Program-made: the position numbers and the translations under genes
DNA from: Clostridia bacterium
Lineage (GTDB): Bacteria; Bacillota; Clostridia; Oscillospirales; CAG-272
Reading direction: 5' to 3'
Length of the DNA: 64,000 nt
Assembly: GCA_017464805.1 (NCBI GenBank)
Contig: JAFTYE010000005.1
Coordinates: 1 to 64,000, forward strand
Part shown: positions 8,631 to 34,519 of the stretch, piece after piece
Numbering within the stretch: the stretch's first letter is position 1
Layout of the letters: each line of letters begins with the position of its first letter
Notes under the pieces: generated by a model
Database searches by the model: none
What the model was told of the DNA's origin: nothing
Seen by the model: the letters and a program-made list of their open reading frames with translations, nothing else

Positions 8631-8657
8631 AAAAAGCCTTGTGGCATAAGGCTTTTT
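8631..8657. terminator. Terminator of the integrase gene
   Basis: Perfect 10-bp arms AAAAAGCCTT / AAGGCTTTTT with loop GTGGCAT, reaching the integrase stop codon. Confidence 0.7.
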
Positions 8658-11696: not shown

Positions 11697-11698
11697 GC

Positions 11699-14748: not shown

Positions 14749-15412
14749 CAGGCTTTACCTCCTCACGAATAATATCTCTCATATACAGACCGTTTAAATC
14801 GTCTTTTTCAAGCTCAGCGCGGAACGCGGCTCTCGCTTCATCGTCGCGCGCTTTTCTCTTTGCATAATATTTAGTGTTATCGGCAACCTCGTAAGAAACA
14901 AACTGAATTTTCTCAAAGGCTGCAGGGCTCTTCAAAACGAACTGTTCACCAAGCTTGCCGAGGCGCATCGCGCAGGAAAGCTGTGCAAGAGAAATTTCGT
15001 TGTTGACAAACGCTCTTGCAAAAGAAAAATAGGAATCGTCGGCGCGATAACCAATGACAACGTCATAGGGTTCAAGATCGATCAAAAAATGTTCCTCAAG
15101 CCAATCGATGCCTCGCTTCATTACGGGAGTTGAGACACGTAACTTGCGATATTTCATCAAAAGGGCAAGCCAATGCAAAATGGTGTATTCGTCGGAAGAA
15201 AGATTCAGCACGGAAAGACCGTCGGTGTTAATCTCATATTTATTGGCATATCCGTCGGTATTTTCGGTGCAAGCCCATTCCTTTGCCAGCTCGAGGTGCT
15301 CGGTGCAATAAAAGCCGCGTCCGTAGTCGTTATATGCTTTTCCTTTTCCGAACACGGGAGCTTTAATAATTTCAGGCGAACCGTGATATAGAATTAGTTT
15401 ACTCACTTTCAT
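14729..15412 (-). CDS. DUF3990 protein, putative ADP-ribosyltransferase toxin
   Basis: About 228 residues beginning KLILYHGSPEIIKAPVFGKG and continuing YNDYGRGFYCTEHLELAKEW. The LYHGS strand and G-FY-T pattern are those of DUF3990, which is related to the ADP-ribosyltransferase fold (R/H-x-T-like NAD-binding strand). The start could be ATG 15412 or a GTG at 15406, since AGAGG lies very close to the ATG. Toxin activity is inferred from the family and the paired HTH gene, not shown. Confidence 0.75.
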   Translation of the reverse strand: MKVSKLILYHGSPEIIKAPVFGKGKAYNDYGRGFYCTEHLELAKEWACTENTDGYANKYEINTDGLSVLNLSSDEYTILHWLALLMKYRKLRVSTPVMKRGIDWLEEHFLIDLEPYDVVIGYRADDSYFSFARAFVNNEISLAQLSCAMRLGKLGEQFVLKSPAAFEKIQFVSYEVADNTKYYAKRKARDDEARAAFRAELEKDDLNGLYMRDIIREEVKPDDPRLR

Positions 15413-15420
15413 CACCTCTA

Positions 15421-16249: not shown

Positions 16250-16864
16250 TTATTTTATATCTTTTATAACCTTCAGGGCAATGCCTTGTATCTCAATCTT
16301 GCTCGGCTTCAGCTCGCGGCGCTCCTTGGGATAGCTCTTGTTCTCTGCAAATAGCCAGGGACGCCCATTTTCACGCTTCATAAAGCGTTTGAGCGTCGTG
16401 CCCTCATCTGTGAGCACAGCAACCACTTGCCCGTCATAAGCCTCCTGAGCGCGTTTAATGAGGACAAGATCACCGTCATCAATGCCGATGTCGATCATCG
16501 AGTCACCCGACGTACGAAGCAAATAACAATCTCCGTCAAGCCACTCCTCGGGAATGGCAACGTAGCCTTGTATCTCCTGTCGGTTGTCCTCGGGAGAGCC
16601 GCACACTATCGAGCCAACAATGGCAACGCGGCGGAACGCGGTCTTCATAGATTCCTGCCCTTTAACGGAGAGCGTGTCCTTGCCGTTGTACTTAACAATG
16701 CCACGGTCGCGCAAGGTAGTCAGATAGCGGTAGCCAACTGAGTTGCTCATCTCCATATATTCAAGGATGTCCTTGAACTTAGGTGACTCACCGTTGTTCT
16801 CCCTTACGTAGCGGTGAATGAACTCCGCCATTTGATTCAGTTTTTCTTCATTCATCCGCTTCAT
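16250..16864 (-). CDS. LexA/CI-like S24 self-cleaving repressor
   Basis: 204 residues. The N-terminal winged helix (about 1-70, KFKDILEYMEMSNSVGYRYLTTL) is followed by an S24 peptidase domain with the catalytic Ser in RTSGDSMID and the Lys in EGTTLKRF. The cleavage dipeptide appears to be Cys-Gly (IVCGSPEDN) rather than Ala-Gly. The ATG at 16864 fits the N-terminus of LexA-like proteins; a longer frame upstream would run through the operator. In mobile elements such proteins keep excision or transfer genes off until DNA damage. Confidence 0.85.
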   Translation of the reverse strand: MKRMNEEKLNQMAEFIHRYVRENNGESPKFKDILEYMEMSNSVGYRYLTTLRDRGIVKYNGKDTLSVKGQESMKTAFRRVAIVGSIVCGSPEDNRQEIQGYVAIPEEWLDGDCYLLRTSGDSMIDIGIDDGDLVLIKRAQEAYDGQVVAVLTDEGTTLKRFMKRENGRPWLFAENKSYPKERRELKPSKIEIQGIALKVIKDIK

Positions 16865-16890
16865 AAATGCCTCACAAATTTCGATCAAGA

Positions 16891-16920
16891 ATAAAAGAAC
16901 TTGAACTTCTTTTATAAAAG
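16891..16920 (-). promoter_or_regulatory. Candidate operator of the LexA-like repressor
   Basis: 16891-16915 is a 25-bp imperfect palindrome, symmetrical at 22 of 25 positions, with arms ATAAAAGAA and TTCTTTTAT. It overlaps a perfect 12-bp palindrome CTTTTATAAAAG at 16909-16920. It lies 27 bases upstream of the repressor start. It does not match the usual Firmicute LexA box (CGAAC...GTTCG). Confidence 0.6.
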
Positions 16921-16968
16921 TATAACACAGCGGTCGGATTTTGTCAATAGGTTTTTTCGAAAAAAATA

Positions 16969-17119
16969 CGAGGTGGTGCTTTTGAGTGCCACCTCGTCGC
17001 AACCTGCGATAAAGTTTATAACCTCGCGCCATTCTGGCACGAAGTGGTGTGGTTGGTTTTCAACCAGACCAAAGGCTCTTTTTGCCCCTTTGGTTTCAGT
17101 GGTCCAATTTGGCCCACTG
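16969..17119. repeat. Hairpin array 3, downstream of the 402-residue protein gene
   Basis: Six consecutive palindromes: CGAGGTGG/CCACCTCG (16969-16996), TCGCA/TGCGA (16997-17009), CGCGCCA/TGGCACG (17025-17041, one mismatch), TGGTTG/CAACCA (17050-17066), CCAAAGG/CCTTTGG (17069-17093) and CAGTGG/CCACTG (17097-17119). The third unit resembles one in array 1. There is no gene in the 295-bp gap. Confidence 0.75.
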
Positions 17120-17159: not shown

Positions 17160-18368
17160 CTATGCGGACGCCGCCTCTGACAAACTGAAATATACGTTCT
17201 CGTTATCAAAGAGTAAATCTACAGACTCGTTGTAAATTCTATTCACAGCATTGATATTATCTACAAACGGACGAACGCAAGTACAATGCTCGTGAGCAAA
17301 AAGCTCCATGGTGTTTTCAGTACGCTTTTCGCTAAAGCTCTGGACTTTATCTCCAGCCTCAATAAGGTTTTCGTCCACTTGACCGTCGCTTATTTTCGGA
17401 ATTTTTGCGATTGTCTTGCCGAGCGCTCTGTTTAAGCCTGCAACACCTTTCAATGCGTATGCTTCTATTGAGGTTTTGGAATCTCCCTCAATCATTTGAT
17501 AGCACTTTTCATGCAAATCGTGATATTGTCCTGCGTAGAGTTGAATTTTGCTCGTTACCGCATTTAAGTATCCCGCATCAAAATTCTCAAGCAACATTAC
17601 CTCAAGGAAAGACGAAAACGAGAATATGTACATTGCAAGCTCATAATCCTTAAATTCATACTGAACTTTTTGGATTTTGGATTTTACATCTCGGTCGCTG
17701 TGTAATAAACCTTTCTTGCTGACCTTCTTTTCAATCTGATCTCGGCAGAAAATGATGCTCTGCTCGGCATCACGCTTGATTTCCTGAACTTGAATATGCT
17801 TATTGTTCTTATATTTTTCGTTATCCCAATTATACTTGTATTCATCAAGGATTTCCTGCAGAACGGCAATATTACCTTTCAGCATAGCTTTTTCTTTCAA
17901 CTGTAGAAACTCGATAATATCTTTTTGTGCTTCTTCAATTTGGTCGAGTTTTTTTGTAATGGTTGATATGGCTATAGCCATTAACATAATAGCTGGGTTG
18001 ATTTGAGCAACGGTTCCGGCAGCCCCTTGTACTGCTTCAAAACGTGCTCTTTGTGTTATCTTTCCGCTTGTATCCACAACGTTTCCAAGCAAACCACCAT
18101 CTTTTGCAAATTGCAGACTCTCGCCCAACCCAAGACCTTTCGGAATGCGCATACTGTATAATTGTTGTCCTACTCCTGAGTTTTGAACACCGTTAAAAAT
18201 GTTCTTCAATGCAGGTGCAACCGAAGCAAAGGTCGCTCCCATTGCAGAAAGCTGCCCGAGGGGAACTTTAGTATATTCTTGTATAGCAATTTCTTCTTGG
18301 ATGACGGGATAACATTCAATTTCCGTCATTGCACGAACAATCGCATTTTTCTTAGTTATTTCATCCAT
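17160..18368 (-). CDS. Unknown 402-residue protein, last gene of the defence operon region
   Basis: Not recognised. Glycine-rich and hydrophobic stretches occupy about residues 37-140, including PAIMLMAIAISTITK (about 125-139), which could be one membrane segment. A predicted coiled coil (about 139-200, KKLDQIEEAQKDIIEFL) and a helical C-terminal half follow. There is no signal peptide. AGGAGG precedes ATG 18368. It lies 69 bases behind the YjbR gene on the same strand. Its place at the end of a defence operon and its helix-plus-coil layout would suit a membrane-acting effector, but this is speculation. Confidence 0.6.
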   Translation of the reverse strand: MDEITKKNAIVRAMTEIECYPVIQEEIAIQEYTKVPLGQLSAMGATFASVAPALKNIFNGVQNSGVGQQLYSMRIPKGLGLGESLQFAKDGGLLGNVVDTSGKITQRARFEAVQGAAGTVAQINPAIMLMAIAISTITKKLDQIEEAQKDIIEFLQLKEKAMLKGNIAVLQEILDEYKYNWDNEKYKNNKHIQVQEIKRDAEQSIIFCRDQIEKKVSKKGLLHSDRDVKSKIQKVQYEFKDYELAMYIFSFSSFLEVMLLENFDAGYLNAVTSKIQLYAGQYHDLHEKCYQMIEGDSKTSIEAYALKGVAGLNRALGKTIAKIPKISDGQVDENLIEAGDKVQSFSEKRTENTMELFAHEHCTCVRPFVDNINAVNRIYNESVDLLFDNENVYFSLSEAASA

Positions 18369-18436: not shown

Positions 18437-18823
18437 TTAATGTTTGTCAGAAATGATCTTTAGTTTGCGCTTGTTTTTCGTAGCTTCAAAACTTACGTTT
18501 ACAAGGAATTGCACTACATCCTCGGGAGCGTCGGGAAGAAGTACCGATATCCAATGGAGCTTGTTCATATGATATGCGGGATATACACCGTCAGCTGCTC
18601 CAAAAGAGCCGAACATATCCGTCGGTAGCTTGAGGTTCACAACGTCAATAACCTCGTCACTTTCAAGCCCAAACTTACGTCGGGATACGCGCATTACTAT
18701 CGCATACCACTTTCGATTATCTCCGTGCCTAAGCACCGCCGTCTCAAAATCTTCGTCAAACGGATAGTCCGGCGATGTGCTGTATGTATAGAAGCAATAT
18801 TCAAGGAAAGATTGCTTTGTCAT
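18437..18823 (-). CDS. MmcQ/YjbR family protein
   Basis: 128 residues with the family hallmarks DNRKWYAIVMRV and YPAYHMNKLHWISV near the C-terminus. YjbR proteins have a CyaY-like fold and have been proposed to bind DNA, but their role is unknown. GGAGG precedes ATG 18823, 25 bases downstream of the DGQHR gene, so it is probably co-transcribed with the defence genes. It could be an accessory subunit or a passenger. Confidence 0.8.
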   Translation of the reverse strand: MTKQSFLEYCFYTYSTSPDYPFDEDFETAVLRHGDNRKWYAIVMRVSRRKFGLESDEVIDVVNLKLPTDMFGSFGAADGVYPAYHMNKLHWISVLLPDAPEDVVQFLVNVSFEATKNKRKLKIISDKH

Positions 18824-18847
18824 CGCCAGACCTCCAAATCTTTAGTA

Positions 18848-21154
18848 TCAAAAGATCAATATCCCCATCAACCAATCATATATGCTCTTTACATATGTGT
18901 ACTCATCAACGGGAACACTATAGCTTTCCTTTGAGAGCTTGTTTGATATAGAATTGACCTTGAGTAACCAATCCGTTTTTACATCTTTGCCCCCTATGAG
19001 ATTAGCTTCTTCGGGACGGACAAATGTGTCTTCGAAAAACAGAGACCAGTTTTTGCCGTTGAGTACGATCTGCTTACACTCGGGGAGTGTAACATAATCC
19101 CAAACAGGGATATCAATTTCTTCTCCTGTGTTGGTTACATGGATATACATGGCTTCGTCAGCCTCGCCTTTTGCACGAGTATAAATGTTTTTGGGAAGGC
19201 CTTTAATTAACCAACTCTCTCCAAAATAATCGTTCAAACGCTCAGAGATCAACAGTTTAACCTTGGTCACAATTTCCTGAATCATAGAAACTGTCTCATC
19301 GTTGTACATCTTTGTCTCATTTTGCCAAAACTCTTCCAATCCCTCGGGAGTGAAATCGGGACGCATATCAGCAATCGCCTTTTGATATGCTCTCCAGAAA
19401 CGTGTATCAGCACCGCCACCAAAATATCCACGAAGATCTTTGCGCTGCTCGGCGTTCAAATTGTTTATATAGTCAGTGAGAGGCTTGAGATAATATTGAA
19501 TAAGGCCAAACATATCGTCCAATGCTTGAGTCTTCGGATTGATCATTCCTTTCTCAACAAGCATGTTTACGACATCATCGATAACACGAACCACGGCTTG
19601 TATACCACGGTTCATAGTGAGCATTCCGTTGTCGCTGTCACCCTTATCCCATTCTTCCAAACATGTCTCTCTGATATAGAGTAAACATTTTTCGATAAAT
19701 GGATAGAACAGATCGCAGGTCTCTTGGTTATCTTTACAATCAAAAGTTCCTTCTTTTTGAAGAGCATTCTTCTTTCCGTAACTATCGAAGAATCTACACT
19801 TCTTTAGAGCCGCTTGCAAAGCCTCGACTGTAATGCATCGAGTAGGAGTAGACTCGTTTTCACCAATTACAATTCTTGAGTTAAGAGGAGATGTCGCTTC
19901 TTCTCCAAGCATCTGTGCAATCTTAGAACGAAGAGCTTGACGCTGTTCACCAAGGTCTGGAGATTCCCAAAGCATGTCCGCATTTAATGTTACGCGGAGG
20001 GACTTGGGAACAGCCTTTTGGTTTTCGTTGATATCCATAAAGAGTTTGATTTGCTCTGTACGATCCAAATCTACAAACGCAACAACAGGAACAGTATTGG
20101 TTGCAGCATAGAGAGAATCCGAATATCCGTACAAACGATGCTGACCGTCAATAATATAGGCAGATCTATATCTCTTGGGAATGTGTAAGATACCAATTTT
20201 CGAAATAGTACTATCCACTTTCGAAGAAGATTGGTCGAATGAAAGCCCCTTGCCATTGGTATCAATGCTAATGATGATGGAGTTGGGAAAATATCCGCCA
20301 TCATTAATGAACGAACGCACTTCCTGAAGACGCTTCTTTTTGATTAAACGCTGATATGTAGGCATCATGTTTTTGTTCGCCTCAGAACGATGTAAAACAT
20401 ATCCAATCTTCAGTAATTTTTCAGGCTCAATGGAAAACGAATAATATGTATAGCCTCCCATTTTACCTTGAATGGCAGGAACTCTATCATCCATATTCTT
20501 AATTTCTTGGTTGGCGAAAAGGCTTCCCAAAAGTTGATATCTCGAACATGAGCCGAGGTGCTTTGCCAAATCGGAATAGTATTCGATCGTTGTATCGCTG
20601 AAATAGGCAATCCCTGCCTTATCCAAAAGTGCGAGATCACGACGATTCATAATGAAATTATGCGATGCCCAAATGAATTTGGTCTTTCTGCCAGGATACT
20701 GCTTGAGGACTTCTTTTCTTATCCCTGCAATCTTGCTGCTAAAATCATTGATTTCAGTAACAAAACTACGTTCGACCATCGTTTCAGATGCGTGACACAG
20801 AACGATTAGAACAGTTTCTTCATCGACCGCAACAACACCGATGCGCTCTTTCAAGTCATCGTTGTTAAAGTCATAAGATATTTGTATTCCATTTTCTTCG
20901 TTAAGACCGCTAAATCCCATACTTGTAAACAACAACCAAACGCGATCTTCAAACTGTTCGCTTATGGGCTTTTCCTTTGACACACCAACAAGTTTAGGGC
21001 TCTTATAATCTTTGCTCTTTTCCCATCCGGCATCAATGTACTCTGGAAGTTCCGAAGCCGGAATTTTCTGTGAAACAAATATTTTTTTGTGATTGCTTTT
21101 GGCAGTAGCCAATTGTTTATCGAATACTATTTGTCCCCAATCTGTTCTTCCCAT
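18848..21154 (-). CDS. DGQHR-domain protein of the defence operon
   Basis: 768 residues. The diagnostic motif IIDGQHRLYGY is at about 334-344 and is followed by VPVVAFVDLDRTEQIKLFMDIN with NENQKAV, the ParB/DndB-like nucleotide-binding fold. The N-terminal 220 residues look like a separate alpha/beta domain. DGQHR proteins include DndB, the regulator of DNA phosphorothioation, and related proteins in DNA-modification islands. Its start codon overlaps the stop of the methyltransferase gene by one base (TAATG), so translation is coupled. A role as DNA sensor or regulator is inferred. Confidence 0.85.
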   Translation of the reverse strand: MGRTDWGQIVFDKQLATAKSNHKKIFVSQKIPASELPEYIDAGWEKSKDYKSPKLVGVSKEKPISEQFEDRVWLLFTSMGFSGLNEENGIQISYDFNNDDLKERIGVVAVDEETVLIVLCHASETMVERSFVTEINDFSSKIAGIRKEVLKQYPGRKTKFIWASHNFIMNRRDLALLDKAGIAYFSDTTIEYYSDLAKHLGSCSRYQLLGSLFANQEIKNMDDRVPAIQGKMGGYTYYSFSIEPEKLLKIGYVLHRSEANKNMMPTYQRLIKKKRLQEVRSFINDGGYFPNSIIISIDTNGKGLSFDQSSSKVDSTISKIGILHIPKRYRSAYIIDGQHRLYGYSDSLYAATNTVPVVAFVDLDRTEQIKLFMDINENQKAVPKSLRVTLNADMLWESPDLGEQRQALRSKIAQMLGEEATSPLNSRIVIGENESTPTRCITVEALQAALKKCRFFDSYGKKNALQKEGTFDCKDNQETCDLFYPFIEKCLLYIRETCLEEWDKGDSDNGMLTMNRGIQAVVRVIDDVVNMLVEKGMINPKTQALDDMFGLIQYYLKPLTDYINNLNAEQRKDLRGYFGGGADTRFWRAYQKAIADMRPDFTPEGLEEFWQNETKMYNDETVSMIQEIVTKVKLLISERLNDYFGESWLIKGLPKNIYTRAKGEADEAMYIHVTNTGEEIDIPVWDYVTLPECKQIVLNGKNWSLFFEDTFVRPEEANLIGGKDVKTDWLLKVNSISNKLSKESYSVPVDEYTYVKSIYDWLMGILIF

Positions 21155-21972
21155 TAGACATCTCTCCTTTCGGGTATGTTAGTGAAAATGTATTCTTGAA
21201 CTTTTCCTCTAAAGGATTTTTTGCCGCCAATCAAACTATTTCGTTCAAGAGTTATCATACGTCCTTTTCCTTTGAAAATTTCCAAGATGGTCGGATGAAA
21301 TGCATTCGTCATAATGTAATATGCACCTATGTTGTTGATGTGGTCTATCAAAGCTGCTAATCTTCTTTGGTCGTCAAGCGAAAACCATGTGGAGTTATAA
21401 CCCACAAATCCAGTATCTTCTTTTGATACAGTATATGGGGGATCCAAAAATACTAAATCTCCAGCTACAAGTTGAGGTTGGATGGCTGCAAAGTCCTGAC
21501 ACGTAATATTAATGCCGTTAAGCTTTACTCCAACATCTAAAATTCTTTGACAATTAAGGGTTACTTCTTTTTTTCCATACGGAACGTTATACTTTCCGTT
21601 TTTGTTTACCCTATATATACCGTTAAACGAAGTGGCATTCAAATACAAAAATCTTGCGGCTTTTTGATGTTTCTCTGTCGGTTCAGTAGCTCGAACTGCA
21701 TAATAACTTTTTTCGTCGGTTTTATATTCTTTAAGGTGTTCAATAATTTGTTGAGGATTATCTCTCACCGTACAGAAAGCATCAACCAATTCAGCATTCA
21801 GATCCGATAAATATCCGTTGTGAGGAATATCCAGTGAGAAGAAAATCGATGCACCACCCATAAATGGTTCGTAGTAATTGTTATAGTCAAGCCCTTGAAT
21901 AAGTTGGGATACATAGGGAACAAGCCATGACTTGCCTCCCGCCCAACGTATAAATGATGTTATTGATGCCAT
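21154..21972 (-). CDS. D12-class DNA N6-adenine methyltransferase (Dam-like)
   Basis: 272 residues. The SAM-binding motif FIRWAGGKSWLVPYV is at 7-21 and the catalytic motif LDPPYTVS is at about 175-182, both typical of Dam/DpnIIA enzymes that methylate adenine in short sequences such as GATC. The length is normal for the family. It is coupled to the genes on both sides through TAATG overlaps. In this operon it most likely marks host DNA as self. That differs from DISARM, whose methylases are DrmMI or the 5-methylcytosine enzyme DrmMII. Confidence 0.92.
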   Translation of the reverse strand: MASITSFIRWAGGKSWLVPYVSQLIQGLDYNNYYEPFMGGASIFFSLDIPHNGYLSDLNAELVDAFCTVRDNPQQIIEHLKEYKTDEKSYYAVRATEPTEKHQKAARFLYLNATSFNGIYRVNKNGKYNVPYGKKEVTLNCQRILDVGVKLNGINITCQDFAAIQPQLVAGDLVFLDPPYTVSKEDTGFVGYNSTWFSLDDQRRLAALIDHINNIGAYYIMTNAFHPTILEIFKGKGRMITLERNSLIGGKKSFRGKVQEYIFTNIPERRDV

Positions 21973-23561
21973 TAGAAATTCCTCACCAACTCTATAAGAT
22001 AATATTTCGCTCTTGTATATGCGATGTAATTCATATTTTCCGTTGCAGTTGTATCATGTATGTAAATTACCATGTTGGATTCCAAGCCTTTGTATTCTTC
22101 GATAGAATACACCCCTATTTCGGTTTCGCTACAAGGAGATCCATCAACGAATTTCCATTTTGCTATACCATCCGGGAACTCGCACAGAAGTTTTTCTTTG
22201 TTGTCGGATATGATAACCAGACAATCATTCTTTAAGTATTCTTCTTCAAGATAACGTCTGAAAAGCGTTTCAAGAAGTAGAATCAGCTGACCTCGCTCGG
22301 ATACCATCTCTGTAATAGGAGTAGGTCCTTCAACCGGATTGGCAATCATGTCGGTTCCAAGATTGGTTTTATCAGCAACCCAATTGTATATATTTGCTGT
22401 GTTTCTAATGTTCTCTCGTAGCAAATATGGCGCTTCATCAATTCCAAAACCACCGCCAAAGCTATCTTCTCTCAGTACTTGAACATCATCAAAGAATACG
22501 CCGAGACGAGAATTCTTCTCATCAACCAATAGATTTTTTACTATAGTTGCCCACTCCGAAGTGAAATCCTGTGCTTCATCTACAAATATAGCGTCATATT
22601 TCGAGCAATCCTCAATCATATTATTGCTTAATCCAATGAATGTTGGCTCACGGAAAGTCTCAAAATCGCGTATTACATTTTGAAACAGCGAACGAATATC
22701 TTTTACGTCAACTGTATCACCAATATGGGAACGTACCATTTCAGCGAGTGGCTTGGAAGCACACACAAACAACACCTTTTGCCCAGATGTCTCAGCTGCA
22801 TTTTTTGCCATTTTCATAGCAATCCACGTTTTACCTGTACCTGCGCCTCCGCGCATATAAAACTGTTTTACGTTTGAAAGCAAATATATGTAGTTGTCCT
22901 GTACACGATTGATCACGTTCAGTTGTTGGTCTTTATATCGAACAAGTGCCCCTGCAGCGGCGGATATCGCGAGTCTATCACGAATCAATTCGAGAAATGC
23001 ACGGTGTTGACTTATTGGATAGAAGCGTCTACCGTATGAAGCTCCTCCCCATAAACGAAACATCTTTTTGATACGATCATAGAGGTTATTGAGATCGTTA
23101 CTATCTATTGTGCATTCACGATCTCGATTACTGAGTTCCACGTCTTCACCTATAGGATAGAATGGGAAAATAACACCCGCACCAAAGGTTCCGGAATACC
23201 TCATGTTGTACTTGTTAGAAAAGACCTTGTTAAAATAATACATATTCTTTTCTGCTTGATCGTACGGAGACATATTAAGCTTCCGCTCTCCGTGGACTGC
23301 ATCCGAAAGATACCAAACATTATCCTCGATTCGAACACTGCTTCCGCCTTTTACCTCAAGACAAAGAAAACCATAATCCGGGCTGGCAACAACAAAATCA
23401 GCTTCTGATTTTACCAATCGTCCGGCATTGTAGCTTGTCCAACTAACAGAATAGAACACATCAAAGGAATCGGGAAGTTGATTTTTTAGTTCCTGATACA
23501 CAATTCGTTCTGAATCTGTAGGCATATATTCGTTGATATTTTTCGGATACATATTTGCCAT
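21972..23561 (-). CDS. NERD nuclease-SF1 (UvrD-like) helicase
   Basis: About 529 residues. The N-terminal NERD-type nuclease domain contains the PD-(D/E)xK pattern ADFVVASPDYG...LCLEVKGG (about 55-76). Then comes an SF1 helicase core with Walker A GGAGTGKTW (about 242) and Walker B IFVDEAQDF (about 325), and the C-terminus carries YTRAKYYLI. The ATG at 23561 is preferred over TTG 23576, since GGGAG lies 8 bases ahead and the DrmB-like stop is two bases upstream. It is the only gene in the operon with intact nuclease-like residues that I can point to, so it may cut invading DNA. Confidence 0.85.
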   Translation of the reverse strand: MANMYPKNINEYMPTDSERIVYQELKNQLPDSFDVFYSVSWTSYNAGRLVKSEADFVVASPDYGFLCLEVKGGSSVRIEDNVWYLSDAVHGERKLNMSPYDQAEKNMYYFNKVFSNKYNMRYSGTFGAGVIFPFYPIGEDVELSNRDRECTIDSNDLNNLYDRIKKMFRLWGGASYGRRFYPISQHRAFLELIRDRLAISAAAGALVRYKDQQLNVINRVQDNYIYLLSNVKQFYMRGGAGTGKTWIAMKMAKNAAETSGQKVLFVCASKPLAEMVRSHIGDTVDVKDIRSLFQNVIRDFETFREPTFIGLSNNMIEDCSKYDAIFVDEAQDFTSEWATIVKNLLVDEKNSRLGVFFDDVQVLREDSFGGGFGIDEAPYLLRENIRNTANIYNWVADKTNLGTDMIANPVEGPTPITEMVSERGQLILLLETLFRRYLEEEYLKNDCLVIISDNKEKLLCEFPDGIAKWKFVDGSPCSETEIGVYSIEEYKGLESNMVIYIHDTTATENMNYIAYTRAKYYLIELVRNF

Positions 23562-23563
23562 AA

Positions 23564-25474
23564 TTACATCTCCCAAAAACCAATAGTTGGTGTTTCAGCA
23601 CCGTCTATTGAATACAGATATTTTCTTCCAAGTTCTGCGTTAAAGTGATTGCACGAGATCTCCGGAATGATTAAACAAGCGCTACAAGCAGTATCGTCTC
23701 TCTTCGTACAAATCGGATCAAACACGCAATTCTTGGTTTCGTCAAATGCTTTTTTCAAGAAATAAGCATAGTTGGTTTCAGCCATACCAGACAATGCACC
23801 AAGAGGGATGCCCTGACTGGTCTGAGCATAAATGAATATGCTTGCCGTTTCGACAATGATTATTTCCGTCAAGGAATTACTGGAAAGACCACTTAATTCA
23901 CCGGCTGCATTCATAAATGCATGTGACATTGAATGGAGCAACGCAAAAACATTCTTTGTGATTACTTCGCTCTCATCAATTTCTCCGAACATAGAAATCA
24001 CATCACTATGAACATACTCCGCAAACCATTTTTTTACGGATACTTCATCATCAAGGTCCGGTAGTTGCTCTTCCAGGATAATATCATTATCATACAGCCA
24101 CTCAATGATTTTGCGTCGATCAATCTCAAAGAGGATACCCTCTGTATCCAATTTTGCACCGTACACAAGATTTGCAGTTCCGTCACGTGTTTTGTCATAG
24201 GCATTGAGCTTTAATCTACAACGAGGGTTATTGCTGGCAGCAATTTTAGGATCCGCGCTTCTTCGAGTAAAGCCATAAGTGCAGTTAAGGATTTGAATAT
24301 CACAAGAAACTTGCATATTTTTGATTCCTAACTTGGCATTCAACTCATGTACCTCATCAGCGGAATCAATAAACTCCATTTCAAGTTGACGCTGAATTGC
24401 TTCCTCCAAAGTTACAATTCTCTTCGCATACTTAAGAGTATCATATTGCATCAATTTGAAGGAAAAATGACCAAGCCACTCAGTATACCCAACAGGATCT
24501 TCTGATTTCCGCTTTGAAAACAAATCGTCACACTGTGCAACATATGTTTCAACGCTTTTTGTGTTGGGATTATCCTGCATAAGTTTATTAACAGCACTTT
24601 CAAACTGGTCCGCTGGTATTAAACCGATATCTATCAAAGAACGCACCTGTTGCTCGAACTGGAGCCTTTGGCCATCGCTTCTAAACGCATCGCTGAACGC
24701 TAATTCTATATTGTTCAGAATCTCTTCGTAGTCATCAGCAGATATCTTATCAAACCAACGGGATACGATCGTTTTTTGAGCGTCCAAGCCTTTTTTATAA
24801 AACCGTCCACAACGCTCGTCCACCAAATTTATTACTCTCAGAGTAAAAGGCTTGTAATTCCGTCCGGAATTTGCGTTGTCAGGAACAAGTCTTGAATTGC
24901 ATGTGGGACACGGCAATACAAACTCTGCAGGCTTGTCGACATTACCACTTTTATAAAACATTTTATACTGTGTTTCATTTGGACGATACTTAAAATCCTT
25001 AACTCCTGGCACATATGGAATTTTAATCGGCTGTGCATGACCACACTCACATGCATAAATCATCTGAAGCTGTTTTACAGCCAATTTGCCACATTCTTTG
25101 CATTTCCAGGTATACTTGTCCACGTCCGATGGATTTCTAACATCAAAAACTTTTCCGCACGAGCTACAATAGAAAACCAATGGAGACATTTCGCCAATAA
25201 TATCTGGAATGCCCTCATTACATGCAGTTTCGACAACCGAAAAAGTATGTGTACCAGGAGTAATATCAAATGCAGTAATATCGCCTCCGCGATCTCCAAA
25301 CAACTTTATTTGCCGTTTTATTTCTTCCTCTATAAAGTCTTCGTAGATATCGGACATCTTAATATAGTTCCAATTCTTAATCCTTGCAGAAATGGCACGA
25401 CCAGAATCATCTTTTTCGGATATCCACATATCAGGTAAAAACCTATATACCGCTTGTGTTTTACTTCTTTTCAT
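23564..25474 (-). CDS. DrmB-like DUF1998 protein
   Basis: About 636 residues. The N-terminal third has zinc-ribbon pairs (FYCSSCGKVF, WKCKECGKLA, CECGH, CPTCNS) and the C-terminal DUF1998 domain ends with the cysteine cluster DDTACSACLIIPEISCNHFN. This architecture and its position beside a DrmA-like helicase match DrmB of DISARM, which forms a complex with DrmA to recognise unmodified phage DNA. The start is ATG 25474 behind GAGGTG; the stop of the DrmA-like gene overlaps this ribosome site. Confidence 0.85.
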   Translation of the reverse strand: MKRSKTQAVYRFLPDMWISEKDDSGRAISARIKNWNYIKMSDIYEDFIEEEIKRQIKLFGDRGGDITAFDITPGTHTFSVVETACNEGIPDIIGEMSPLVFYCSSCGKVFDVRNPSDVDKYTWKCKECGKLAVKQLQMIYACECGHAQPIKIPYVPGVKDFKYRPNETQYKMFYKSGNVDKPAEFVLPCPTCNSRLVPDNANSGRNYKPFTLRVINLVDERCGRFYKKGLDAQKTIVSRWFDKISADDYEEILNNIELAFSDAFRSDGQRLQFEQQVRSLIDIGLIPADQFESAVNKLMQDNPNTKSVETYVAQCDDLFSKRKSEDPVGYTEWLGHFSFKLMQYDTLKYAKRIVTLEEAIQRQLEMEFIDSADEVHELNAKLGIKNMQVSCDIQILNCTYGFTRRSADPKIAASNNPRCRLKLNAYDKTRDGTANLVYGAKLDTEGILFEIDRRKIIEWLYDNDIILEEQLPDLDDEVSVKKWFAEYVHSDVISMFGEIDESEVITKNVFALLHSMSHAFMNAAGELSGLSSNSLTEIIIVETASIFIYAQTSQGIPLGALSGMAETNYAYFLKKAFDETKNCVFDPICTKRDDTACSACLIIPEISCNHFNAELGRKYLYSIDGAETPTIGFWEM

Positions 25475-25484
25475 TTTTCTCACC

Positions 25485-28400
25485 TCAGATCTTTATCTCA
25501 ATCTGTTCTTCTGTATCGCGCAAGCTTGTCATAGGCATTTTCTTTCCGCGCGAGAATTTTCCGATAGCATCGGAAAGAGAAAATTCGTTTGTGAAATTAC
25601 CATTTTTTATTCCAGAAAGGATGTTGTTTGTTTCTTCGGCTATAATTTCTTTGTAAGCCAGCGACATCTTTTCTTGGTTGTTGCAGCCATATGCGTTTAT
25701 CAATTTTACGATAACATCGTCGATGTCGATATCTCCAGAGCGCAACATCTTTTGTACTTTTATAGCTTGGTGCAAACTATCGGCGCCTGTAGTGATTGTA
25801 TAGTGTTGTCTAATTAATCCGGACAGCAATCCCGGCAAGGTACTATAAATAGCGTTCTTCGCCCAACGATTAATTGGAACTGCTTCAACCAAATCGTCTC
25901 TGTTTTGATGGAAAACCACAAAATTCTTCAAGTATGAGCGGTCACGTACTCGCATCAAACGAATAATATCAACGACTATACCCGTATGCTTACGTCCAGT
26001 ACGAGAATATGCTTGAATATACTCTGCATTATTGTTAGGCATGCCAAAGAAATACATAATATTGAACGAATCCTCGTCCACACCATGCGAGATTGTGCTG
26101 GTTGCCAACAACAAGTTGGTGCTATCAAAATTTCTTCTATTTGCATGGATATCAAACAACGTTTTTCTTACAGTTTGAAAATCTACATCACTGGTCATTT
26201 GCTCAATAACATATTTGGGAACCCCCTTTGCTTCCAGATAGTTATTTGCCTGGTTTTGAAATGCGTTTTCAAGTTCCATTGCATCTTGCTTACGGTTGTT
26301 GTAAACCAGTTCGATCCAATAATCATATAACATTTCCTTATACTCAGCGATGCTTCCAACAAATCCAGCATCACATAGAGCGGCATAACTCTCGTCTATG
26401 AATTGAATCATTCTGTAGACAATGAGCCTCATAATATATACAGATTCCCACATACCGTCTGTAATAGACCTTCCGTAAGGCGCATAACCGATCAATATAC
26501 GAGTTATGTCATTTTCATCAGTATGCGAATAAAAATCCTCTCCGGATTTAGCAGAAGGATATTCACACGGGAAACGCCGTCCCTCCATATGATACAAGTT
26601 TCTTATGTGAGATTCATACATAGAAATCGTCGCGGTGGCGCCCACAAATCGAATAAGTTTTCGATGGGCTTCAGGAACAAGTTCTTTGGCATAATAACTC
26701 AAAAAAGACTCATAGTGTGCGTCAAATGTTCCCAAACTCTCCTTTACCAAGTGCATCTCGTCTTGAATAAACAAAGTGGGGATAGGATCTTTCAGCAGTC
26801 CTACATTTTCCAGAAAATTATTGTTACAAGCAGAGCAAGAACATCTCGTGGTGCTTGTAAATCCATGCACAGGACATTTTTTCTTTACCTGCCCAAATAG
26901 CATCTTGAAATCATTGCTTGTTCCAAGCATAGCCATTTTATCTATCGTGCTAACCACAATAGAGGGAAGATATCGATATATTTCATTATCAACGATCATT
27001 AGCGGGAGCACCGTTATAGGACAATCGGGATTGTCGCAAACATGCTCCAATTTCCAATTGTCACGGTTAAAACGAAGATTAACCTGTTTTTTGCCACAGA
27101 ATGGGCAAGTGTCGATAAAGCGATAATAATCGTTCAGGGTTTCCTGATCGCTTTCAAGAATGAGATCTTTCGATTTATTTTTTTCTCCGCGTTCGCTCAA
27201 ACGCTCATAAGCATCAATCTTATTAGGAGTATTTCCTTTTCCAACAAAAAAACCAACTTGGAATGGTGTCTTGTGAGCAAGCTCGGGAATGGATTCGCGC
27301 ACAACATTTGCCTTCATAACAATTGTCAGCACACGATCCAACTGCTGTACAGCGAGCAATCTCAGAGGATATTTGAGAAAAGCCGTGATGCCTTCATTTT
27401 TGCCACGCAAACGATCAAAAAACATATTGAAAACACACGCGCCAAGGAAAGCTTCTGTCTTACCACCACCAGTAGGAAAATAAAGGAGGTTTGCAACTTC
27501 AATATCCGCATCTGCAATAGCACGATCATTCTTATATTCACTTCTTATCATTTCGCATATAAGCGAAACGACAAAAACAATTTGGAACAGACGCCAACCA
27601 TCGTATACTCTACTATGCGGAGACAATTGAATCATGAACGTTTTGTTCATATAGATAAAAGCTTTCCTTACATAGTCTCTGTACTCAATTTGCTCTATAC
27701 CTTTTTTAAACCGATCTATTTCACGTTCGTAATCGTCTAAAGCTACTCTGAATTTATCTTTTGCGACAACACTGGCAAATCTGGTAGTATTGAATTCGTT
27801 CAAGCATTGTTCGTAATCAGCCTTCATTTCTCTGTAAATGCAATTCAAATTGCCAACAGGATCTTGAATAAGCTTTTCAAATTTTACGTATTCGGTTAAT
27901 CCGTCTTTGGTTATCAAGCGCTTTTGGTAGTACCGAGGAATATTGTCAGTGCGTATAGCATTCTCTTCAGGGCAGTAAGATGCGGATGTGTTTTCGGCAA
28001 TAGCATATACCAAAGAACGAGATTTGTAACTGCTCTTGAAGTAGTCCAAATCTATATTTTTGAACTTAACAGCTCTGTTGCCGATGATATCCATCCCAGC
28101 ATTGAATACTTTAGGCAGATATCCAATATTGCTTTTTCCGTTTACAGGGGTCTTATTAACCATCTGCATCAAGAAGTGGTAGGAGTCCCCCTCGTCAATA
28201 ACCGTACAATATATATCGATAATCCAACGAGGATATACAGGCTCTTCGCTTCCACCAGTCACCAGATAAAAGCGTTCTTTATCCACCAAGTCAAACAAAG
28301 ATACGCGATCACTTTTGATCACCTTAATTTCGTTGCTAATTTTATCGGCAAGTTCAGAAAGACGTTCGTTTATCTGTTGTTCCAAATGAAATTTGGATTC

Positions 28401-28883
28401 TTGAAGAGATATTAGCGGTACAGATATTCCACCTTTCATTTCATCTTCGATCTTAATTTTTTTATATGTCAAAGGGAGATAGAACTTGTCTTCGGGGTGG
28501 GCATCGCAAAGTTGCTGAATGTTGGTGTATCGAACGTTATCCTTTTCAGAATACTTTTGTATCAAAAAAGCAACTGTCTTATCATAGTCAGGTTCTACTG
28601 TATAAAACAGGAGACCTTTTGGAATAACCTTAAGCACACCCAACGGATTCTTTTTCACAGCAAAAGAAACGCTTATAGACGGAACGCTTTCGAAACGAGT
28701 GGTACTATTTTCTGCGTAGCCACCGTCAAATCGCTGCTCCATTCTGTTTTCGGCTAACATACCGACCATAACACGATCAGCAGGAGAATCATCTACAAAA
28801 GTCTCCGCAATATCTTCTCCGGAGATTCTTTCGATGTATTTGGATACTATGTAATCTGCTAAAATGTTATAATTATTTGCCAT
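25485..28883 (-). CDS. DrmA-like SF2 helicase
   Basis: About 1132 residues. Walker A is FPTGGGKTEAF (about 470), a zinc-binding insertion has CPFCGKK and CSCSACNN (about 590-685), and Walker B is IQDEMHLV (about 708). Motif III is GATATI, and the C-terminal RecA lobe has STISHGVDEDSFN and QAYSRTGR (about 960-1020). Length and motifs match DrmA of DISARM. I use ATG 28883 because AGGAGG lies directly ahead; an in-frame start at 28943 would overlap the previous gene. It should translocate on DNA and deliver it to partner proteins. Confidence 0.87.
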   Translation of the reverse strand: MANNYNILADYIVSKYIERISGEDIAETFVDDSPADRVMVGMLAENRMEQRFDGGYAENSTTRFESVPSISVSFAVKKNPLGVLKVIPKGLLFYTVEPDYDKTVAFLIQKYSEKDNVRYTNIQQLCDAHPEDKFYLPLTYKKIKIEDEMKGGISVPLISLQESKFHLEQQINERLSELADKISNEIKVIKSDRVSLFDLVDKERFYLVTGGSEEPVYPRWIIDIYCTVIDEGDSYHFLMQMVNKTPVNGKSNIGYLPKVFNAGMDIIGNRAVKFKNIDLDYFKSSYKSRSLVYAIAENTSASYCPEENAIRTDNIPRYYQKRLITKDGLTEYVKFEKLIQDPVGNLNCIYREMKADYEQCLNEFNTTRFASVVAKDKFRVALDDYEREIDRFKKGIEQIEYRDYVRKAFIYMNKTFMIQLSPHSRVYDGWRLFQIVFVVSLICEMIRSEYKNDRAIADADIEVANLLYFPTGGGKTEAFLGACVFNMFFDRLRGKNEGITAFLKYPLRLLAVQQLDRVLTIVMKANVVRESIPELAHKTPFQVGFFVGKGNTPNKIDAYERLSERGEKNKSKDLILESDQETLNDYYRFIDTCPFCGKKQVNLRFNRDNWKLEHVCDNPDCPITVLPLMIVDNEIYRYLPSIVVSTIDKMAMLGTSNDFKMLFGQVKKKCPVHGFTSTTRCSCSACNNNFLENVGLLKDPIPTLFIQDEMHLVKESLGTFDAHYESFLSYYAKELVPEAHRKLIRFVGATATISMYESHIRNLYHMEGRRFPCEYPSAKSGEDFYSHTDENDITRILIGYAPYGRSITDGMWESVYIMRLIVYRMIQFIDESYAALCDAGFVGSIAEYKEMLYDYWIELVYNNRKQDAMELENAFQNQANNYLEAKGVPKYVIEQMTSDVDFQTVRKTLFDIHANRRNFDSTNLLLATSTISHGVDEDSFNIMYFFGMPNNNAEYIQAYSRTGRKHTGIVVDIIRLMRVRDRSYLKNFVVFHQNRDDLVEAVPINRWAKNAIYSTLPGLLSGLIRQHYTITTGADSLHQAIKVQKMLRSGDIDIDDVIVKLINAYGCNNQEKMSLAYKEIIAEETNNILSGIKNGNFTNEFSLSDAIGKFSRGKKMPMTSLRDTEEQIEIKI

Positions 28884-28918
28884 ATTATGATCCTCCTGTT
28901 GAGTACCAAGATTGTTGT

Positions 28919-31483
28919 TTATTTGTTCGATTTTGTCCACCATGCAGGTTTATAGTTGGACTGTTTGCCTGAGCCATAAGCGCCGGTAGCGCCATATAAC
29001 TTCATAGCTTCCTTTACATATGGTTCTAATTTCTTTTGATCTCCAAGAACCCAAAGGCATCCGTTCCATCCACGACAATCTATTGTGAAAAAGCCTTTAC
29101 TTTCAAAGTATTCTTTTAGAGAAAGCTTTTTCTCGGTTGGTGGAGGATTTTTTGCAACAGGCTTAGCCTCCATAGGTTTTGTTGATACCAGAGATGCTTT
29201 TTCAGACTTAGGAGGTTCGGGAGAAATGATTTTATCTATTTTGTAGGTTAAGGGAATACCGACAAACTTAAATGTTTCCCCGACCTTTTTCCCAATAATG
29301 CTTTTCTGCTTCGGGTATTTTGCAACATCAACCGTAATAGTAGTAGGTTTCTTAGACTCTTGAATCGTTGCTTGAACCGTAACATGGTCAGTGACCTCTT
29401 GTACTAAATACTCTTTAGTTGTTGCAAAAGAATTGTTGCTTGTCGTTCTTGAGCTGATATTGCTGTTGGTCTTGGCAGGTGTTGGTGAAGTGCGTACAGT
29501 TGATGTTGATGCACTGCTCCTATCAGATTGCTTCTTTATGATTTCTTCCATTGGAGAACCGGGTTTCAAATCACTTATAACATACAACAGATCACGCGCT
29601 CTTGAACATGCAGTATATACAGCTCGCATTTGGCTTTGAACAGCAGTTTGTTGATTTTCAGGCATATTCTTAATGCTGGTCCATGTTTTGATATCTCCGA
29701 CAACCTCGCCGTCCACATTGACATAACTATAGGGATATAGACCTGCTAAAATAACAGCCTTAAAGTCCAATCCGAGTGAAGATTCAATCGTGGATACAAC
29801 TACTCCAGAAATATCACCTTGTCTCACTTTCATATGACTACTTTCGTGTTCGTTAATGATCATCGAATAAGGAATTCCTTCTTCGTCAAGTCCTTGCTGA
29901 AGCCAATATAGAAAATAGTATTTATGATACGGAACTTGTCTATATGGGAATAGCACCGCAATATCCGAATAACTGATTTTATGTTTTGTGGATATTTCTC
30001 TAATCGCAGCGATTACTTGGTTTTTTATATCAAAGCGCGATACTCCGGTTTGAACTTTTAAAGCTATAGTTGGATTAGTACCTATCTTGAACGAGTTATA
30101 CTCATATTCAAGTGAATTGATCAAATCCAACATGGATAGACGCGTATTCATATGCTGCAACATATGGGAAATATATTCACCGATTTCCTTGCTGTTCCTA
30201 TAGTTCTTTTCGATGTAACGAACACGCCCAGTAAAGTCCAAATGGACACCATTCATACGTTTCCACGGCGCATCACCCTTTCGGCTCAATGCTCGAACAG
30301 CCTGATTCAAGTCGCCAGCCATCAAGAAGACTCGATCTTCGTCTTCTTCAAGTAAGCTATAGCACAATTCAAGGTAGAGAGGATCAAAAATTTGAACTTC
30401 GTCTATGAAAATCGCCTTGAAATTAAGATTAACCTTTCCTTGTTTCACCAAATCTATGCACTTTTGAATCTCTTCATCGGTTGCAATGTTGGTTTCACAG
30501 TGCGAATGGAGACATTCCTCATAAATTTTTTTGACGAGCTTATGGAAAGTCATAATAAACAAATTATTATTTTCGCCAAAATTCGCGCAGTTACGCTTAA
30601 AATTATAAGAATCTGCCAAATTGTTATTATAGCAAGTCAACAAGACATTGGAACCTTTATAAAGACTTGCGTATTTGAAAGCTTTCGACAATAACAATAC
30701 ACTTTTTCCTGCACCAGGGTTCGCAAGGATTACACGATGTCCTTTACCCATATCGTTAACGACACCAACCTGATATTCATCAAGGAAAAAGGTTTTGTAT
30801 TCTACCTCTCGACCGGTTATTCGAAGATCTTTTTCTGTAACAAGAGCTTTCTTTTCGGTAATTTTAACGTTTTCGGTTTCATTCATTACGACGGTGTATT
30901 CTTCCGCCAAACGTTCAAATATTGCTCTGCATTCTGCATCAGACAAAGACTTGAATGTTTTGTCGTACGCTTTCCTGATTCCACCGAATATCATCAAATC
31001 CTCTATTCTTTTTTCCTTGCCTTGAGATGTAATCGGTCTGAAGGATTCAAAGGTGGCATAGTGCAATAACTTGTTAAGATCTTGCATAGACAACGCTGTC
31101 TTTCCTGCAATCTCATCCGCAAAAATTATAATGTGTTTATAGGGGAATTTGAGTGCCTTGTGTTGACCGTTTCTGACGATCAACATTTTAGAATCCAAAA
31201 GGCGCTCATATATTTTCGTCTCAACCATTTCAACGTAACTGATATAGTGAGGAACCAATAAAGCATTAATATTTCCTGTATATATGGAGAATGTAACAAG
31301 TCCTTCGTTAGGTGAAATGTACATTCCCATTCGAACTTTATCGGTACTCAATCCTATGGGGTCAATACCTATCACCATATGACCATTCTGAAAGTTGCGA
31401 GAAGCATACCTTAAAAGAGCCTTTTCGGCTTTTGTAATATGATCTTTGCGTTCAAAGTCTTGCGGCCATAATCTAATCGACAT
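28919..31483 (-). CDS. SF1 helicase with degenerate NERD-like N-terminus and GreA-C-like domain
   Basis: 854 residues. The N-terminal part (about 1-130) resembles a NERD domain but has KVRMGMYISPNEGLVTFSIY where the nuclease residues should be. An SF1 helicase core follows with Walker A ANPGAGKSVLL (about 252), IFIDEVQIFDP (about 368) and YTACSRARDLLYV (about 635). Then come a low-complexity Ser/Thr linker (about 660-700), a GreA/GreB C-terminal-like domain (KSIIGKKVGETFKFVG, about 745), and a final module with WNGCLWVLGDQKKLEPYV...PAWWTK. It is the first large gene of the defence operon. The two helicases may work as a pair. Confidence 0.8.
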   Translation of the reverse strand: MSIRLWPQDFERKDHITKAEKALLRYASRNFQNGHMVIGIDPIGLSTDKVRMGMYISPNEGLVTFSIYTGNINALLVPHYISYVEMVETKIYERLLDSKMLIVRNGQHKALKFPYKHIIIFADEIAGKTALSMQDLNKLLHYATFESFRPITSQGKEKRIEDLMIFGGIRKAYDKTFKSLSDAECRAIFERLAEEYTVVMNETENVKITEKKALVTEKDLRITGREVEYKTFFLDEYQVGVVNDMGKGHRVILANPGAGKSVLLLSKAFKYASLYKGSNVLLTCYNNNLADSYNFKRNCANFGENNNLFIMTFHKLVKKIYEECLHSHCETNIATDEEIQKCIDLVKQGKVNLNFKAIFIDEVQIFDPLYLELCYSLLEEDEDRVFLMAGDLNQAVRALSRKGDAPWKRMNGVHLDFTGRVRYIEKNYRNSKEIGEYISHMLQHMNTRLSMLDLINSLEYEYNSFKIGTNPTIALKVQTGVSRFDIKNQVIAAIREISTKHKISYSDIAVLFPYRQVPYHKYYFLYWLQQGLDEEGIPYSMIINEHESSHMKVRQGDISGVVVSTIESSLGLDFKAVILAGLYPYSYVNVDGEVVGDIKTWTSIKNMPENQQTAVQSQMRAVYTACSRARDLLYVISDLKPGSPMEEIIKKQSDRSSASTSTVRTSPTPAKTNSNISSRTTSNNSFATTKEYLVQEVTDHVTVQATIQESKKPTTITVDVAKYPKQKSIIGKKVGETFKFVGIPLTYKIDKIISPEPPKSEKASLVSTKPMEAKPVAKNPPPTEKKLSLKEYFESKGFFTIDCRGWNGCLWVLGDQKKLEPYVKEAMKLYGATGAYGSGKQSNYKPAWWTKSNK

Positions 31484-31508
31484 TTTTTACCTCTTGCCCT
31501 TCAGTATA

Positions 31509-31702
31509 TTATTCTGCTGCTTTACCACTCTTGATCCACTCATCGACCTCGCTGGGCTTATACTTCCAGCCGCGGCCGACCTTATGAGCAGGCATACTTT
31601 TTCGTTTATCCAAGTGAGCAGAGTATCACGTGTTACGCCGAGGTAGGCACACATTTCTTTGGTAGAATACCAACGTTCAGGGATCTGATTCATTTCTTGC
31701 AT
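31509..31702 (-). pseudogene. Frameshifted small HTH (MerR/Xis-type) gene at the head of the defence operon
   Basis: Read from ATG 31702 the frame gives MQEMNQIPERWYSTKEMCAY and an HTH up to LLTWINEK, then runs into an unrelated tail. One base further on, the other frame supplies the expected C-terminus MPAHKVGRGWKYKPSEVDEW and stops at TAA 31511-31509. The break is at a run of five A on the coding strand (31598-31602), where six A would restore a full product of about 64 residues. It could be a real mutation, a slippage switch or an assembly error. The intact protein would be a regulator or excisionase-like DNA binder. Confidence 0.75.
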
Positions 31703-34473: not shown

Positions 34474-34519
34474 GTTAGGGAGAAATCTCACGGGGGTTCG
34501 AATCCCTCTGCTTGCGCCA
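34463..34519 (+). pseudogene. 3' half of the split tRNA-Ser(UGA)
   Basis: Begins in the anticodon loop and includes the anticodon stem 3' strand ACCGT, a variable arm, the T-arm GGGGG-TTCGAAT-CCCTC, the acceptor strand TGCTTGC (34509-34515), discriminator G and CCA (34517-34519). It pairs correctly only with the 5' half at 8225, not with the intact tRNA at 8407. It has no promoter here, so it is not expected to make a tRNA. Confidence 0.9.

Follow-up and report, generated by a model that had tools for sequence, protein, structure and literature searches.

A DISARM-related operon with a D12 methylase-DGQHR pair on a putative mobilizable element of a Clostridia bacterium

Introduction

The DNA analyzed here (the window) is a stretch of 64,000 nucleotides from a Clostridia bacterium (GCA_017464805.1, contig JAFTYE010000005.1, positions 1 to 64,000), and its minus strand carries an operon (18848–31483) related to DISARM (defense island system associated with restriction-modification). 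In DISARM, the helicase DrmA and the DUF1998 protein DrmB are accompanied by DrmD and the PglX-type methylase DrmMI (class 1) or by DrmE and the 5-methylcytosine (m5C) methylase DrmMII (class 2). The part of the literature available on its mechanism describes DrmAB as autoinhibited and opened by 5′-tailed DNA, and the phospholipase D (PLD) nuclease DrmC as non-essential (PMC9142583). Among related systems, the accessible portion of a preprint attributes to ARMADA a BrxHII-like helicase, a PglX-like methylase, a Vsr nuclease, and a DUF1998 part (OB-CON-DUF1998) typically fused to the helicase (Bell et al., 2025; PMC12458937). The same source describes TALON as a rare, largely Chloroflexota system with a YprA-type helicase and a NERD nuclease. 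BRIGADE, as far as its description was available, is a 7-deazaguanine cluster of halophilic archaea, usually with two YprA helicases. For the DGQHR family, partially available accounts describe a DndB-like ParB-fold protein that binds ATP and GTP (PMC12704722), DpdB as a ParB-like ATPase for base insertion (PMC12839542), and a likeness of GmrS to the DGQHR domain (PMC4619093).

The explanation preferred here, with a probability of roughly 0.55, is that the window holds a mobile anti-phage operon built on a DISARM core, which would have captured a restriction-modification (R-M)-like pair of a D12 methylase and a long DGQHR protein; the nuclease of this pair appears to have been silenced, and a NERD helicase probably does the cutting. 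The role in phage defense is inferred.

Gene Content and Comparison With Described Systems

The operon and its nearest downstream neighbor comprise the following genes, in which SF1 and SF2 denote helicase superfamilies 1 and 2:

28919–31483, minus strand: SF1 (UvrD/GajB-like) helicase, 854 aa (profiles, Walker A/B motifs)
25485–28943, minus strand: DrmA-type SF2 helicase, 1152 aa (PADLOC, PDB 7s9v, motifs, tree)
23564–25483, minus strand: DrmB-type DUF1998 protein, 639 aa, in a gene separate from the helicase (PADLOC, PDB 7s9v, cysteines)
21972–23576, minus strand: NERD nuclease of the PD-(D/E)xK type fused to an SF1 helicase, 534 aa (Pfam, PADLOC)
21154–21972, minus strand: D12/Dam-family N6-adenine methyltransferase, 272 aa (Pfam, NCBIfam, structure match)
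18848–21154, minus strand: long DGQHR (DndB/DpdB-like) protein, 768 aa (NCBIfam DGQHR, 5.6e-50)
18437–18823, minus strand: YjbR/MmcQ protein (Pfam, 3.1e-15), a co-directional neighbor outside the conserved system

The first six genes form a single tight operon. From 5′ to 3′, its junctions are a 25-nt overlap, a 1-nt gap, a 13-nt overlap (provided that translation begins at the TTG), and two 1-nt overlaps; the YjbR gene follows after a 24-nt gap. An initial annotation, made from the letters of the window, had described a coupled gene run with most pairs overlapping or within a few bases of each other, and both points are borne out by the open reading frames, by profiles for every name, and by recurrence in six other loci. 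The profile sets applied were PADLOC, Pfam, and NCBIfam, with the PADLOC scan covering eight proteins. Promoter-like sites show no excess (40 vs. 40.5 in shuffles), and terminator-like sites number 13 vs. 10.0 in shuffles (standard deviation 2.8).

Matches of DrmA to PADLOC (8.5e-132) and to the solved Serratia DrmA (PDB 7s9v, 6e-45, restricted to residues 449–1046) are accompanied by GGGKT, DExH, ATAT, SHGVD, and QAYSR-GR segments that are kept in all 14 rows aligned. DrmB matches the corresponding PADLOC profile (1.2e-53) and 7s9v chain (3.2e-5), and its DUF1998 cysteines are kept in 12 of 12 rows. The SF1 helicase likewise retains Walker A/B in 12 of 12 rows; each of these three alignments includes the more distant loci L057 and L068 described below. 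In the window and three relatives, the SF1 helicase reaches about 200 aa further at its C-terminus than it does in the shorter members. The N-terminal domain of this helicase has no Pfam support as NERD, and the idea that the protein is a diverged DrmE was rejected (hhalign probability 0.2%). The NERD-SF1 helicase matches Pfam NERD (8.4e-9) and PADLOC RTasNERD-Hel (9.5e-46). Its D...ExK (D60/E74/K76) and Walker A/B motifs are kept in all 11 NERD helicases compared, including that of L068, and it is probably the DNA-cutting enzyme of the operon.

The D12 protein matches Pfam (2e-40), NCBIfam dam (198 bits, above the cut-off), and PADLOC Type II MTase (3.9e-77), and the closest solved structure is DpnM (2dpm, 6.5e-48). 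The DPPY motif is present in 10 of 10 D12 proteins. The long DGQHR protein consists of an N-terminal nuclease-like domain that has lost its D/E/K residues, the DGQHR domain (residues 227–528), and an unassigned C-terminal part. It scores 170.6 with NCBIfam and passes the Pfam DndB threshold, both above the cut-offs, and matches PADLOC DpdB (8.8e-26); no match was obtained among solved structures. The Pfam matches of the NERD, D12, and YjbR proteins likewise exceed their cut-offs.

As in DISARM, DrmA and a separate DUF1998 protein DrmB are adjacent and in the same order. Unlike DISARM, the operon lacks DrmC, DrmD, DrmE, and a PglX-type or m5C methylase, and it has instead the SF1 helicase, the NERD-SF1 helicase, the D12 methylase, and the DGQHR protein. 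These absences, already proposed in the initial annotation, are upheld by the profile searches. No PLD nuclease was found in the operon with PADLOC or Pfam. In the bacterium's own genome (91.66% complete), PLD matches are limited to two proteins with two matches each, unlike the single-PLD DrmC, and these would fit cardiolipin synthases. Among the eight proteins scanned, PADLOC found neither the class 1 proteins DrmD and DrmMI, both of which it recognized in comparison loci L070 and L072, nor the class 2 proteins DrmE and DrmMII. Because these class genes were not encountered, the operon is regarded as a DISARM-related variant outside class 1 and class 2.

A suggestion that such an array might already have a name did not hold for the candidates compared. 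The operon resembles ARMADA, as far as that system's description was available, in its YprA-type helicase, a GajB-like UvrD helicase (as ArmD), and a methylase. However, ARMADA is a different system, with BrxHII and PglX homologs that have no match in the window operon and a DUF1998 domain that is typically fused, whereas here it is a separate gene and no nuclease match occurs on DrmA. With TALON, in the part of its description covered, it shares a YprA-type helicase and a NERD nuclease, but the TPR-CSD (cold-shock) and TATA-binding protein (TBP) genes that TALON also has gave no Pfam match among the eight proteins, and DUF1998 is unfused. Compared with the available account of BRIGADE, the own genome has one DrmA-type match, the operon has no match to Dpd biosynthesis genes, and the host is bacterial. 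Membership in ARMADA, TALON, or BRIGADE was rejected, as their defining features were not found. The operon shares a DGQHR/DndB/DpdB domain protein with the Dpd and Dnd systems. However, its proteins include no match to DpdA, DpdC, or 7-deazaguanine genes, with a D12 methylase in their place, and none to DndA, C, D, or E, leaving the DndB-type domain only. Finally, the likeness to DpnII-type R-M systems lies in the DpnM-like methylase and in a DpnII gene set directly before the long DGQHR gene in Pseudobutyrivibrio (G595), but the operon has no DpnII-type endonuclease. In the literature covered on DISARM, its relatives, and DGQHR/DndB/DpdB, part of it seen in excerpt and with subscription papers mostly outside the scope, neither this gene set nor a D12-DGQHR system was found described.

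Conservation of the Gene Order

A collection of 84,980 species was scanned with a two-row DrmA alignment via two short peptide patterns, which yielded 14 loci: L046–L056 (11 loci, 59–96% identity), L057 of Neobacillus (34%), and the generic DISARM-type L058 and L059 (27%). The G595 family, searched in 397 genomes, contributed two more, namely G960 (L067, 59%) and G1037 (L068, 37%). L053 is the same record as G926, and L054 the same as G595 (Pseudobutyrivibrio sp. YE44). The clade, as used below, consists of 13 loci including the window.

In seven clade loci (the window, L046, L047, L049, L051, L055, and L056), the genes for DrmA, DrmB, the NERD helicase, D12, and DGQHR occur in identical order with the SF1 gene in front. 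The six loci other than the window are Bacillota metagenome-assembled genomes (MAGs), and the SF1 gene is partial in L049 and interrupted in L055. The initial annotation had pointed to other genomes as the place to look for the same order; because it recurs in six further loci, the gene set is not a product of chance. Three loci (L053, L054, and L067) have the SF1-DrmA-DrmB-NERD core with a D12 of another branch (30–39% identity), located upstream of the core in L053 and L054 and downstream in L067, and have no DGQHR gene in the operon; in two of these three genomes, DGQHR is missing altogether. L054 has a type II endonuclease-like gene and an AIPR gene between D12 and SF1. The remaining L048, L050, and L052 reach a contig edge before the NERD gene. 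A D12 gene is thus found in all 10 clade loci readable beyond the NERD gene, at two positions and from more than one lineage. The contig of L052 was binned to a MAG of Thermoguttaceae (Planctomycetota), which may reflect lateral transfer or mis-binning.

Between the window and its closest relative L046, dN/dS is 0.031–0.072 across all six genes; against L047 and L051, dS is saturated except for the D12 of L047. The stretch common to the window and L046 corresponds to the operon (18861–31495) plus YjbR, and the block is kept among relatives while their surroundings differ. YjbR had been counted as part of the set, but it is not core: among clade loci it occurs in the window and L046 (86% over 122 aa), and the other 11 gave nothing better than E 0.06, with several of them cut by contig ends and the L056 contig stopping 78 bases past DGQHR, so that its presence there cannot be judged.

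The system is rare. DrmA matches of the clade come from a single genome, the own one, out of 295 in the order, from 2 out of 391 in the class when the own genome is counted, and from 3 out of 397 in the G595 family. At E<=1e-50, the NERD helicase was found in the own genome only among 398 genomes of the phylum. DrmA gave no match in phage records and none that was confirmed in viral contigs, and no confirmed match came from viral contigs searched with the clade's own DGQHR alignment. These families also occur together on a Burkholderia plasmid (L081, 13959–19605), where a NERD helicase gene is oriented convergently to DrmB- and DrmA-like fragments, with an m5C methylase gene close by.

The D12-DGQHR Pair and a Nuclease-Like Motif Lost in the Clade

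Ten full-length copies of the long DGQHR protein were compared outside the clade: six on viral contigs (L108–L113), two in genomes of one genus (L103 in G595 and L107 in G816), and two on plasmids (L082 and L083). As a raw count, a D12 gene adjoins or is two genes from DGQHR in seven of these ten, and it is directly beside DGQHR in L108 and L110–L113. In L103 (5447–10224) and L107 (463–5266), the order is D12, N6_N4 methylase, DpnII endonuclease, and DGQHR; DpnII was identified by Pfam in L103 (1.1e-109) and by 87% likeness in L107. No match to DrmA, DrmB, SF1, or NERD was found in the stretches around the ten copies, and G595 holds its DrmAB core on another contig. The pair of L108 (7176–10280, an IMG/VR viral contig) is the closest relative of the window group in both trees (support 96/96 for DGQHR and 100/99 for D12); because both trees place it next to the clade, D12 and DGQHR seem to have been captured together. 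These patterns suggest that D12-DGQHR is a pair that also exists without DrmA/DrmB, and elsewhere it looks like a small defense system.

In all seven D12-linked copies without DrmA/DrmB nearby, including L103 and L107, a D...ECK motif is intact around residues 105–121. In the three copies that lack D12 (L082, L083, and L109), the ECK site reads ECR or ECT, and N replaces D in L109. By comparison, all seven DrmAB-linked copies have E replaced by V, L, T, or S and K by H, and D is lost in six of the seven, while the DGQHR domain proper is almost invariant among clade members. A Hjc (resolvase) match in L103 is weak and under its cut-off, and agrees with a PD-(D/E)xK-like fold. The N-domain nuclease of the window operon thus seems dead.

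Two independent systems on one transcript, with a D12-DGQHR module inserted by chance behind a DrmAB-SF1-NERD defense system, would account for the core without DGQHR in L053, L054, and L067 and for the pair alone in L108. Such a coincidence is quite improbable, however: in the window both junctions overlap by 1 nt, the order is fixed in seven loci, and the nuclease residues are gone from the DrmAB-linked copies, which is what a pair that had come to depend on the core would be expected to show.

Descent of DrmA

In a DrmA tree of 38 rows, in parts of which the program flagged long branches and odd composition, the 12 clade rows form one branch (support 100/100). Together with L057 and L068, both of which have an SF1 helicase gene upstream of DrmA, they form another (100/100), and the grouping of L068 with the clade has support of 94/88 only. 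The next group, joined with 100/98, consists of four haloarchaeal class-2-like loci, with a PLD gene in all four and DrmE recognized in three; these are the nearest DrmA rows outside the SF1 group and mark the likeness to DISARM class 2. Rows with DrmD sit across a long branch. The simplest reading is that the SF1 helicase was acquired first, the NERD helicase next (L068 and the clade), and D12-DGQHR last. Because the Neobacillus locus L057 (141–15289) also has a DrmD-like helicase gene, which with a TmtA-like protein gene precedes SF1-DrmA-DrmB, gene content and the DrmA tree disagree in places.

L068 (876–16274) combines SF1-orf332-DrmA-DrmB-NERD helicase with two HATPase genes and one radical-SAM gene. 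Its radical-SAM and HATPase genes, 3′ of the NERD helicase, share 40% and 36% identity with their counterparts next to the long DGQHR gene of the Agrobacterium plasmid L083. This likeness indicates partner genes common to the DrmAB-NERD core and DGQHR, the latter in alphaproteobacterial loci. PADLOC has no model for these partner genes, and DGQHR gave no match in G1037, the genome of L068.

The place of the DrmA branch beside class-2-like loci is also compatible with an ordinary class-2-like DISARM with swapped accessory genes, in which DGQHR would be a DndB-like transcription regulator and D12 a plain self-mark. The non-essential nature of DrmC and a partially available description of DndB as repressing the dnd operon in an ATP-dependent manner (PMC12704722) lend it some credit. 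This reading is nevertheless unlikely: with 768 aa, the long DGQHR protein has roughly double the length of DndB (355 profile positions), its relatives keep a nuclease-like motif, and in most contexts it goes with D12 rather than DrmAB.

Proposed Function

Under the preferred explanation of a DISARM core with a captured pair, DrmA-DrmB would, by homology, probably sense and translocate on single-stranded or 5′-tailed foreign DNA as in DISARM. The NERD-SF1 helicase, with its active-site residues kept, may replace DrmC as the DNA degrader, assisted by the second SF1 helicase, while the Dam-like D12 methylase may mark host DNA as self, possibly at GATC. The long DGQHR protein and D12 would derive as a pair from a two-gene R-M-like module. 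In the alignment, the catalytic residues are missing from the PD-(D/E)xK-like domain of the DGQHR protein, so that this protein probably persists as a nucleotide-dependent DNA reader, which may make the activation of DrmAB and of the NERD nuclease depend on the methylation state. In the initial annotation, D12, NERD, and DGQHR were proposed to take the places of DISARM parts; the three are indeed present, but DGQHR is better read as half of the D12-DGQHR pair than as a stand-in for DrmC.

Several observations weigh against this explanation. DrmA and DrmB fall below the NCBIfam curated cut-offs (358.5 of 950 bits and 87.6 of 240 bits, respectively) and are for this reason taken as divergent members, although both assignments of the initial annotation hold by profile and tree. 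Three of the ten outside DGQHR copies are without D12: L109 is beside a radical-SAM gene, and L082 and L083 are near a second DGQHR gene and radical-SAM and ATP-binding genes. Because three clade members have no DGQHR in the operon, this protein is not essential to every version. The GATC specificity has likeness to DpnM as its sole ground, and the dead-nuclease call is a reading of aligned residues only. Moreover, the loss of E and K may be one event, because the seven DrmAB-linked copies form one branch, and the seven intact ECK copies count as fewer than seven independent cases, since L103 and L107 belong to a single genus.

Mobile Element and Neighboring Genes

The operon lies within a putative mobilizable element, whose features are listed below:

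8464–34519, no strand assigned: putative mobilizable element carrying the operon, about 26 kb, ends tentative
8407–8494: tRNA-Ser, on the left side of the element
8657–9856: tyrosine integrase, beside tRNA-Ser
10224–11702: MobA-type relaxase
11699–12112: NikA-like protein
12327–13424: AAA protein

A 31-base copy of the tRNA-Ser 3′ end (81%) is located at 34489–34519. This copy, the integrase, and the relaxase fit a mobilizable element of about 26 kb. The initial annotation saw the operon as cargo of a mobile element, which is plausible; the element context is borne out by the tyrosine integrase, MobA-type relaxase, and NikA-like protein beside tRNA-Ser. Among 60 genomes of the genus, no empty integration site was shown, the flanks being too diverged.

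Such a carrier, with its relaxase and integrase, raises the question whether the genes serve the element itself as a DNA-processing or maintenance cassette, for repair, replication, or keeping rival elements out, instead of defending against phages; YprA-type helicases also act in repair according to the accessible part of the preprint (MrfAB; PMC12458937). We regard this as highly improbable, since the block is kept in relatives with different surroundings, and the in-operon methylase, together with the stand-alone D12-DGQHR and DpnII contexts, points to self/non-self discrimination.

Other genes near the operon include one for a Peptidase_S24 (LexA-like) repressor downstream (16250–17032, minus strand; Pfam) and one for a 402-aa protein (17160–18368, minus strand) to which no model of Pfam, NCBIfam, or PADLOC matched at E<=0.01. 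Directly before the operon, a small gene that by eye resembles helix-turn-helix (HTH) genes (31508–31701, minus strand) has an apparently broken frame; in L048, L051, and L067, this position is occupied by another small HTH-like gene. Within the element, genes for a DUF3990 protein and a neighboring HTH_3 protein (14080–15415, minus strand; Pfam) are likely a toxin-antitoxin-like pair.

Implications

A bolder form of the proposed function, held tentatively and at somewhat less than even odds, is that these loci represent a third class of DrmAB systems. In this class, the captured D12-DGQHR module would have a dead nuclease, and DGQHR would be a nucleoside triphosphate-driven gatekeeper that reads N6-methyladenine and licenses DrmAB and the NERD helicase-nuclease to destroy DNA. 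In the part of the DISARM literature available (PMC9142583), it reads as unsettled how methylation is coupled to DrmAB and which enzyme does the cutting if DrmC can be dispensed with. The natural series of core only, pair only, and core with a nuclease-dead pair would be clean material for identifying both the reader of methylation and the cutting enzyme. D12-DGQHR is also a candidate stand-alone R-M-like system, and if the third-class reading is true, the stand-alone pair, which is also present in viral contigs, would itself be an undescribed R-M system.

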